DNA from: Thermococcus sp. 18S1
Lineage (GTDB): Archaea > Methanobacteriota_B > Thermococci > Thermococcales > Thermococcaceae
Direction: 5' to 3'
Assembly (NCBI RefSeq): GCF_012027645.1
Contig: NZ_SNUU01000001.1
Coordinates: 620,001-684,000, forward strand
DNA length: 64,000 nt
A model generated the notes under the pieces. That model had not been told where the DNA came from. It searched no databases and saw nothing but the letters and a program-made list of their open reading frames with translations. Positions 30,738 through 32,804 of this stretch are shown here, one piece after another; position 1 is the first letter of the stretch; every line of letters starts with the position of its first letter. The position numbers were made by a program, and so were the translations under genes.

Positions 30738-31325
30738 ATGTCTAGAAAGCTTGTGATTTTTGGGATTGTGTTGTTCTTGGTGGTAACTCTGTACTCGAAT
30801 GCAGTTTCGTTAGTGACTGCTTCTTCGTCAGATGAGCCTATTGTAAATCAGATTGATATGGTATGTGTTGGAAAGCTAAAACATGGTGAGGTAGATTTTT
30901 ACAAGTCCAAATGTGTATTACTTGAGAGGAGACCTCTTAATCAGGTTCTTGAAGAACTCGAGAAGTCAGAGTGTAGTGATGATAAAATAATATATTTCTT
31001 CCGCAATGGAGGCTCTCGTCCTTATAAGGTTTCTAGTGTTTATGACTCTAATGGAGTTTCTGTCGGAGTTGTTTATTTTGATCTTATATATGGTGATAAC
31101 ACTAAACACACCAAGTATAATAATAATGGAGTTAAATGCCCAGACAGAAGCCGTCCTGGCTACTGGACCATTGTTTTTGAGGATGGCTCAAAAGTAACCT
31201 TCTACGTTCCACCTAAAGAACACAAGGCCTTCAGCGTCCAAGCAATCTGTGGTCCAGCGTCAATAGCTGGACTGGCCCTTCTTCCGCTGGGGATATTGGG
31301 GGTCAGAAGAAGGAGGAACCGCTGA
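30738..31325 (+). CDS. Surface protein with CGP-CTERM anchor
   Basis: 195 residues. N-terminal hydrophobic signal (LVIFGIVLFLVVTLYSNAV), an external domain with Cys pairs, then the Thermococcales-specific sorting signal: CGP at residues 171-173, a hydrophobic segment and a terminal RRRR cluster. Such proteins are thought to be processed and lipid-linked at the Cys. GGAGGGAG precedes the ATG. The promoter (GATATAAATAC, about 30707-30717) lies between two copies of GGGAGAAGGGAAA. It overlaps the next gene by TGATG, so the pair is coupled. Composition is clearly A+T-richer than the surroundings. Confidence 0.85.
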   Translation: MSRKLVIFGIVLFLVVTLYSNAVSLVTASSSDEPIVNQIDMVCVGKLKHGEVDFYKSKCVLLERRPLNQVLEELEKSECSDDKIIYFFRNGGSRPYKVSSVYDSNGVSVGVVYFDLIYGDNTKHTKYNNNGVKCPDRSRPGYWTIVFEDGSKVTFYVPPKEHKAFSVQAICGPASIAGLALLPLGILGVRRRRNR

Positions 31326-31507
31326 TGGTATGGGCTGTTTGGGGCCGCTCCGAACTTCCCAGAGGTAGGAATTCATGTCCAGTATGTGGTAAGCCCCTGG
31401 AGTATGAGGGGACGATAGAAGGCTCTAAGGGCTGGGATTATGCCCTCTATCGTTGCACCTATTGTGGCAGAAGGTACTATCAGAAAGTTCCCCAGTCATG
31501 GTTTTAG
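31325..31507 (+). CDS. Small zinc-ribbon protein
   Basis: 60 residues with two CxxC knuckles: SCPVCGKPLEY and YRCTYCGRRYY, spaced as in a rubredoxin-type zinc ribbon. It could be an adaptor or nucleic-acid-binding protein. The ATG overlaps the stop of the CGP-CTERM gene (TGATG), so it is translated from the same message, an unusual pairing of a cytosolic zinc ribbon with a surface protein. Function unknown. Confidence 0.72.
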   Translation: MVWAVWGRSELPRGRNSCPVCGKPLEYEGTIEGSKGWDYALYRCTYCGRRYYQKVPQSWF

Positions 31508-31520
31508 TGATTTCCAAAAA

Positions 31521-31646
31521 CTTTAAATCCTCTTCCTTCCTTTCTCTTCCCATGCCCGGTGATTGCTTTTGGCCTTGGTGAAGTCCTGCTCTTCTGCCCC
31601 GGCTTAGCCTTGGGTTTCGTTTCCACTGGAAATGGAGGTGTTTTGA
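31521..31646 (+). promoter_or_regulatory. trpS promoter and leader with possible Trp-containing leader peptide
   Basis: TATA box CTTTAAATCC at 31521-31530. About 25 nt later an ATG (31552) opens a nine-codon frame, MPGDCFWPW then TGA (31579-31581), with two Trp codons among the last three. After it come two possible hairpins: GGC-TTA-GCC nested in CCC...GGG (about 31597-31614), and a 9-bp stem (two G-U pairs) with left arm 31616-31624, loop ACT, right arm 31628-31636, whose right arm overlaps the GGAGGTG ribosome binding site (31634-31640). The second stem is also a mini-ORB-type palindrome. Confidence 0.5.
31552..31581 (+). CDS. Putative trpS leader peptide (9 codons, two Trp)
   Basis: Sequence MPGDCFWPW. 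The ATG lies where a leaderless transcript from the TATA box at 31521-31530 would begin. If translated, its progress would depend on charged tRNA-Trp, the product of the next gene. Its position, its Trp content and its distance to trpS (65 nt) are the only evidence. A chance frame cannot be excluded. Confidence 0.35.
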   Translation: MPGDCFWPW

Positions 31647-32804
31647 ATGGACGACGCGTTTAAGGTCACCCCATGGGACGTTGAGGGAATGGTGGACTAC
31701 GCGAAGCTGATAGAAGAGTTCGGAACAAGCCCGCTGACGGATGAACTGCTTGAGAAAACTGCCAGACTGACCAGGAGCGAGCTGCCCATCTACTTCAGGA
31801 GGAGGTTCTTCTTCTCCCACAGGGACTACGACAAGGTTCTGGCGGATTATGAGAACGGTAAGGGCTTCTTTCTCTACACAGGGAGAGGTCCGAGCGGCCC
31901 GATGCACATAGGCCACATCATTCCGTTCTTCGCCACCAAGTGGCTCCAGGAAAAGTTCGGCGTCAACCTGTACGTCCAGATAACCGACGACGAGAAGTTC
32001 CTCTTCAAGGAGAGGCTCACCTTCGACGACACCAAGAGATGGGCCTACGACAACATCCTCGACATCATAGCCGTCGGCTTCGACCCGGACAAGACCTTCA
32101 TCTTCCAGGACAGCGAGTTCACGAAGATATACGAGATGGCGATACCGATAGCGAAGAAGATAAACTACTCGATGGCCAAAGCGGTCTTCGGCTTCACCGA
32201 GCAGAGCAAGATTGGAATGATTTTCTACCCGGCGATTCAGGCAGCCCCGACATTCTTCGAGAGGAAGCGCTGTCTCATTCCCGCTGCAATTGATCAGGAC
32301 CCATACTGGAGGCTCCAGAGGGACTTTGCAGAGAGCCTCGGCTATTACAAGACGGCCGCAATTCACTCCAAGTTCGTGCCAGGGCTCATGGGCCTTGAGG
32401 GCAAGATGAGCGCCTCAAAGCCAGAGACTGCCGTCTACCTCACCGACGACCCGGAGGAGGCCGGCAAGAAGATATGGAAGTACGCCCTCACCGGTGGGAG
32501 GGCCACCGCGAAGGAGCAGCGCGAGAAGGGTGGAAACCCTGAGAAGTGCGTCGTATTCAAGTGGTTCGAGATATTCTTCGAGCCCGACGACAAGAAGCTC
32601 ATGGAGCGCTACCACGCCTGCAAGAGCGGCGAGCTGCTCTGCGGCCAGTGCAAGCGCGAGCTGATCGAGCGCGTTCAGGCCTTCCTGAAGGAGCACCAGA
32701 AGAAGCGCAAGGAGGCCGAGAAGAAGGTCGAGAAGTTCAAGTACACGGGTGAGCTGGCGAGGGAGCAGTGGGATAAGTCCATTCCGGAGCCGCTGAGGGG
32801 CTGA
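31647..32804 (+). CDS. trpS: Tryptophanyl-tRNA synthetase
   Basis: Class I aminoacyl-tRNA synthetase that charges tRNA-Trp. 385 residues, archaeal/eukaryotic type: the HIGH motif appears as PMHIGH (85-90), the KMSKS motif as KMSAS (253-257), with QITDDEKFLF and AAIDQDPYWRLQRD forming the Trp and adenylate pocket. The charged C-terminus (FLKEHQKKRKEAEKKVEKF) is the anticodon-binding helical part. The ribosome binding site GGAGGTG at 31634-31640 gives normal spacing to this ATG. The leader shows features that could regulate it by Trp supply. Confidence 0.96.
   Translation: MDDAFKVTPWDVEGMVDYAKLIEEFGTSPLTDELLEKTARLTRSELPIYFRRRFFFSHRDYDKVLADYENGKGFFLYTGRGPSGPMHIGHIIPFFATKWLQEKFGVNLYVQITDDEKFLFKERLTFDDTKRWAYDNILDIIAVGFDPDKTFIFQDSEFTKIYEMAIPIAKKINYSMAKAVFGFTEQSKIGMIFYPAIQAAPTFFERKRCLIPAAIDQDPYWRLQRDFAESLGYYKTAAIHSKFVPGLMGLEGKMSASKPETAVYLTDDPEEAGKKIWKYALTGGRATAKEQREKGGNPEKCVVFKWFEIFFEPDDKKLMERYHACKSGELLCGQCKRELIERVQAFLKEHQKKRKEAEKKVEKFKYTGELAREQWDKSIPEPLRG

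Follow-up and report, generated by a model that had tools for sequence, protein, structure and literature searches.

A conserved Trp-codon mini-ORF ahead of trpS and trpC in Thermococcaceae and a proposed +1 frameshift responsive to Trp-tRNA supply

The trpS leader of Thermococcus sp. 18S1

The window, a stretch of 64,000 nucleotides from Thermococcus sp. 18S1, contains a tryptophanyl-tRNA synthetase gene (trpS) that is preceded by a TATA box and by a nine-codon mini-ORF ending Trp-Pro-Trp-stop (Table 1). The initial annotation had described these elements, as well as the 65 nt between the mini-ORF stop and the trpS ATG, and the sequence is exactly as it stated; its naming of the downstream gene as trpS was confirmed by a protein family match. 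Tryptophan accounts for 151 of 11752 codons in the window, and at that frequency two or more Trp among eight codons have a probability of P = 0.004. The initial annotation had put the chance of two Trp in a random nine-codon frame at about 1-2 percent.

The TATA box begins 30 nt ahead of the mini-ORF ATG. Because the median distance from TATA box to start site in T. kodakarensis is 23 bp (PMC4247193), the transcript probably begins at this ATG, which would place the 5’ end of trpS RNA at about 31550-31552 and render the mini-ORF leaderless. Rfam and tRNA searches of the leader returned no match to any known family. Directly upstream of the leader, an ORF of 60 aa (31325-31507) carries two Cys-x2-Cys motifs and likely encodes a zinc-ribbon protein; it had no NCBIfam match.

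Table 1. Positions of the trpS leader features in the window
Feature	Position	Strand	Remarks
TATA box of the trpS transcript, TTTAAA	31522..31527	+	A-rich BRE CCAAAAAC just before
Frame-0 mini-ORF, MPGDCFWPW stop	31552..31581	+	ATG CCC GGT GAT TGC TTT TGG CCT TGG TGA; ATG in frame in 81/81 Thermococcaceae leaders
GGTGA, candidate internal Shine-Dalgarno-like stimulator	31558..31562	+	Inside mini-ORF, 5 nt before slip run; putative role
Proposed shift site UUU_UGG	31567..31572	+	P-site Phe codon, then Trp codon; 79 TTT and 2 CTT among leaders
+1 frame, GGC CTT GGT GAA ... GTT TAA	31571..31663	+	Crosses trpS RBS, stops 17 nt inside trpS
Hairpin, 10 bp	31615..31637	+	3’ arm overlies start of trpS Shine-Dalgarno
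trpS Shine-Dalgarno GGAGGTG	31634..31640	+	Window sequence
trpS, tryptophanyl-tRNA synthetase	31647..32804	+	ATG at 31647; NCBIfam NF008924, 748 bits (cut-off 644)

The mini-ORF and its reading frames in Thermococcaceae

We compared the regions upstream of trpS across the family, obtaining a match in 86 of 94 genomes and a set of 81 distinct leaders. The initial annotation had proposed looking among relatives for a short frame with Trp codons, and such a frame was present in every leader: an in-frame ATG opens the pattern M-x-G-[D/G]-[C/R/G]-[F/L]-W in 81 of 81. Its reliance on two Trp codons held only for the first, which is fixed throughout, whereas the second is absent from 18 of the 81 leaders. 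Frame 0 invariably reaches a stop one to three codons after the first Trp. By parsimony on the leader tree, the columns of the ATG, the GGTG and the TTTGG underwent no inferred changes, compared with 5 to 20 in most of the variable columns near the motif, and in 80 of 81 leaders TTTAWA begins 29 or 30 nt before the ATG. Conservation of the mini-ORF goes far beyond chance.

The codon preceding the conserved TGG was TTT in all leaders except two with CTT, and never TTC or CTC. The leader TTT thus runs against codon preference, as the window favors TTC over TTT by 435:94. Reading onward from this candidate slip site, the +1 frame is free of stops as far as the trpS start in all 81 leaders, and frames 0 and +2 are so in none. 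In 80 of 81 leaders the stop of the +1 frame ends 0-29 nt beyond the trpS start point, and 10 of these have TGAATG, with the stop TGA abutting the trpS ATG. The distance from TGG to trpS takes 16 different values, and its length changes come in multiples of three in at least 18 of 25 cases (P = 9e-5). About 13 stop-creating changes would be expected in the +1 frame without constraint where none was seen, both counts being made on a tree derived from the leaders themselves. The 62-nt length class, which is not homologously aligned, was left out of the codon statistics.

The peptide encoded by the +1 frame of Thermococcaceae trpS leaders has no excess of synonymous changes and is not conserved as a protein, which argues that the act of translating into trpS is what is kept. 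A published report documents translational coupling through termination-reinitiation in archaea (PMC6728339). In three leaders from one genus (L153, L157 and L160) the frame relation between leader and trpS is unlike that of other Thermococcaceae; even so, their +1 frame meets a stop only a few nt inside trpS (TGGTAG), which keeps the coupling geometry.

The motif before trpS in other archaea and at trpC

Outside Thermococcales, a comparable mini-ORF precedes trpS at the L020-L028 group of loci and at L037, L047, L052, L060, L062/L068, L167, L168, L173 and L182. Pattern searches there demanded GGTG and TTTGG, and two leader scans did not demand GGTG. The frame-0 products, each closed by a stop, are MTGDLLWP, MPSGDVFW, MTSGDLLWP and MPGDFLWP in the L020-L028 group, MGEYLWL... 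at L037, L047 and L052, VSGGHFWI at L060, MAGGSLW... at L062/L068, MGGYLW at L167, MQGGSLWR at L173 and MQGGSLWQW at L182. The codon before UGG is CUU or UUU, and at all of these loci TrpRS itself is encoded in the +1 frame reached from YTT_TGG. At several of them the spacing of the Shine-Dalgarno suits the frame-0 ATG. The L168 ATG is placed five codons farther upstream without a change of frame, and the Shine-Dalgarno is about 22 nt from the GTG that would otherwise be called as the TrpRS start. A match at L171 was false, belonging to a different protein, and short Trp ORFs before trpS at L042, L051, L058, L063 and L072 were not counted, since no YTT codon precedes their TGG. The TrpRS proteins of several Thermoproteota MAGs (L020-L028) are 74-77% identical to the Thermococcus enzyme, which suggests that trpS was transferred together with its leader motif.

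A pattern search across the family recovered the motif again in four genomes where the +1 frame is TrpC, indole-3-glycerol-phosphate synthase; two of the four were read directly to place TrpC in that frame, and the other two through a survey of TrpC. TrpC is present in 16 of 94 genomes, one copy being a broken fragment, and 14 of the 15 complete Thermococcaceae trpC genes carry the device: M(T)G[D/E/G]xFW...stop from an ATG or GTG, with TrpC in the +1 frame (MTGDGFWPEQGN or VGDCFWIEQGY, for example, each followed by a stop). trpC is the first gene of the trp operon, and a trpD-like gene comes next after the motif-bearing trpC. In these 14 genes the Shine-Dalgarno lies 5-6 nt ahead of the frame-0 start, and the codon before TGG is UUU without variation. 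Immediately after TGG the TrpC frame varies as coding sequence does, with values of 0.15, 0.09 and 0.44 at codon positions 1, 2 and 3 and 929 synonymous against 140 nonsynonymous pairs. Upstream of the TTT, changes suit frame 0 better, GAT to GAG being D to E in frame 0 and M to R in the +1 frame.

The motif was missing from one complete Thermococcaceae trpC (L200) and from the trpC of three other archaea (L216-L218), and the window's own genome had no trpC match. Across the 94 genomes it heads only trpS and trpC; the other matches inspected (L206-L208, L210, L213 and L214) lie inside or antisense to other genes or are chance-like. It is difficult to account for the same out-of-frame Trp codon at two Trp genes other than by a Trp sensor.

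The trpC promoters (L186-L200) share TGTCCAAA just ahead of the TATA box, in some as the inverted repeat TGGACA...TGTCCA, a likely transcription factor operator. The corresponding regulator may be the product of a gene that L188 carries in divergent orientation (1941-2684).

A proposed frameshift, its alternatives and its precedents

We propose that ribosomes undergo a programmed +1 frameshift at (C/U)UU_UGG through which low Trp-tRNA would raise both TrpRS and tryptophan synthesis, and we consider this reading of the sequence comparisons probable. A ribosome would initiate at the mini-ORF ATG and arrive at YUU_UGG. With ample Trp-tRNA, UGG would be read, the stop would follow one to three codons on, and little trpS would be translated. 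With Trp-tRNA short, the ribosome would pause with an empty A site, probably aided by pairing of GGUG with the anti-Shine-Dalgarno of 16S rRNA, and the P-site tRNA would slip from YUU to the overlapping UUU and continue in the +1 frame. For Thermococcaceae trpS, translation in that frame would cross the RBS hairpin and end at or just past the start codon, leaving trpS accessible and coupled. Continuing in the +1 frame would instead yield TrpRS itself in several other archaea and TrpC in the case of Thermococcaceae trpC. The conserved mini-ORF, the conserved shift site and the frames that are open or coding are read directly from the aligned letters and amount to strong sequence evidence, and the direction of the proposed response is right for homeostasis. 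Counting against a frameshift, Thermococcaceae trpS has a strong Shine-Dalgarno of its own, and GGTG contains a GTG that is in the +1 frame (often as GTG ATG in trpC).

That GTG underlies the strongest rival, initiation at overlapping starts with no frameshift. The ATG would open a decoy uORF carrying the Trp codon. Four to seven bases later, the GTG (or GTG-ATG) would open the +1 frame, which would be a coupling ORF in Thermococcaceae and TrpRS or TrpC elsewhere, with ribosomes on the uORF modulating the second start. The GTG is there in every case, and at several loci the TrpRS frame has no other start. However, overlapping starts explain neither the Trp codon nor the use of TTT and never TTC before it in about 100 trpS leaders and 14 trpC genes, and the Shine-Dalgarno positions at trpC and at L168 are spaced for frame 0 and remote from the GTG, respectively. 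Moreover, a shortage of Trp-tRNA would then lower TrpRS, as ribosomes stalled at UGG would obstruct the GTG; this is the wrong direction. We regard this account as unlikely.

The initial annotation had suggested classical leader-peptide control, in which stalling on the two Trp codons refolds the downstream RNA and exposes the trpS RBS. Its broader proposal of a translated Trp-codon leader on trpS that answers Trp-tRNA shortage agrees with a mini-ORF conserved in all Thermococcaceae and is supported here; the stalling and refolding mechanism in its stated form is not, given that the first Trp alone is conserved and the hairpin is limited to one leader group. The RBS hairpin it noted is real in the 77/76/74/73-nt classes, where 41 of 42 leaders retain most of its pairing, but as such it is absent from other genera. 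Predicted stability comes close to zero at 85 C, and the window leader has no folding advantage over shuffled sequences (z = -1.15 and -0.36). No conserved mutually exclusive RNA folds were found, only the one hairpin in one leader group with z about -1, and we rejected RNA folding as the main mechanism because it is weak and not general. Refolding also gives no reason for the YTT before TGG, for the +1 frame being the sole open one, for indels in multiples of three, or for TrpRS and TrpC lying in the +1 frame elsewhere. These are the features that favor frameshifting at the Trp codon, and leader-peptide control in its classical form appears very improbable. More doubtful still is that the motif is a conserved DNA or RNA site bound by a protein, with ATG and TGG there by chance, or that the +1 frame encodes a functional small protein. 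Strong nucleotide conservation over the predicted transcription start would fit a binding site, but the distance from ATG to GGT varies in whole codons, and at trpC the coding register of the motif is again the same; the small protein was rejected on the lack of synonymous excess in trpS leaders.

The proposed frameshift has a close parallel in bacterial release factor control. The L047 site, GGUGAAUAUCUUUGGC, may be set beside the E. coli prfB site, AGGGGGUAUCUUUGAC. In bacterial prfB, a Shine-Dalgarno-like element, CTTT (TTTTTGA in some genomes) and a slow UGA together give RF2 autoregulation (PMC12421855). The archaeal site resembles the E. coli layout of Shine-Dalgarno-like element, 3 nt, CTTT and hungry codon, and in prfB a CUU or UUU precedes a U-initial codon that is slowed by shortage of the +1 product (PMC12421855), as would hold for the archaeal site. 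The spacing differs: the prfB element lies 3 nt before CUUU, whereas the invariant GGUG of Thermococcaceae ends 5 nt before YUUU. In the same register, the AGGGGG of prfB is about 4 nt closer to the slip site, a difference that counts against the frameshift. The archaeal slow codon would be the sense codon UGG, the sensed factor Trp-tRNA and the product TrpRS or TrpC, in place of UGA and RF2, and in Thermococcaceae trpS the shifted frame would couple to a separate downstream gene.

In yeast, +1 frameshifting of the Ty1 and ABP140 type occurs at CUU_AGG, where the tRNA is constitutively rare and no Shine-Dalgarno is involved. In that system, as in the proposed one, a CUU-decoding tRNA slips while a sense codon awaits a scarce tRNA; in the archaeal case, by contrast, charging would vary with the regulated enzyme and its amino acid. 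As proposed for the archaeal leaders, bacterial trp attenuation senses Trp-tRNA by means of a short leader that precedes Trp genes and contains Trp codons. It does so with tandem or repeated Trp codons, whereas the archaeal leaders conserve a single one, offer no conserved alternative fold and would act through the reading frame. The Firmicutes T-box puts synthetase and biosynthetic genes under the control of uncharged tRNA, as would be the case here, but it is a structured tRNA-binding RNA, and the archaeal leader has no Rfam counterpart.

Our literature search found no description of an archaeal trpS leader peptide or of a synthetase controlled by frameshifting. Portions of reviews of frameshifting and archaeal recoding (PMC5009743; PMC8211752) and of a large survey of frame transitions (PMC3711429) mention no such case, and regulatory frameshifting in archaea is described as almost undocumented (PMC8211752). 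A study of T. kodakarensis start sites states that attenuator or riboswitch regulation in archaea is without direct experimental support in vivo (PMC4247193). Autoregulatory +1 frameshifting that senses the charging of an amino acid’s own tRNA would possibly be the first of its sort. On balance, we are inclined to think that archaea sense an amino acid through the reading frame, with hungry-codon +1 frameshifting at UGG controlling TrpRS and the trp operon, that this is an old device of Thermococcales and several Thermoproteota lineages, and that it is the first instance in nature of frameshifting governed by the aminoacyl-tRNA supply of the product’s own amino acid.

If the proposal is correct, the annotated starts of TrpC and of some archaeal TrpRS may be wrong, since translation would give a trans-frame product. 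A genetically tractable family would then possess a conserved, translation-coupled sensor of Trp-tRNA serving two Trp genes, with predictions that extend to single bases.
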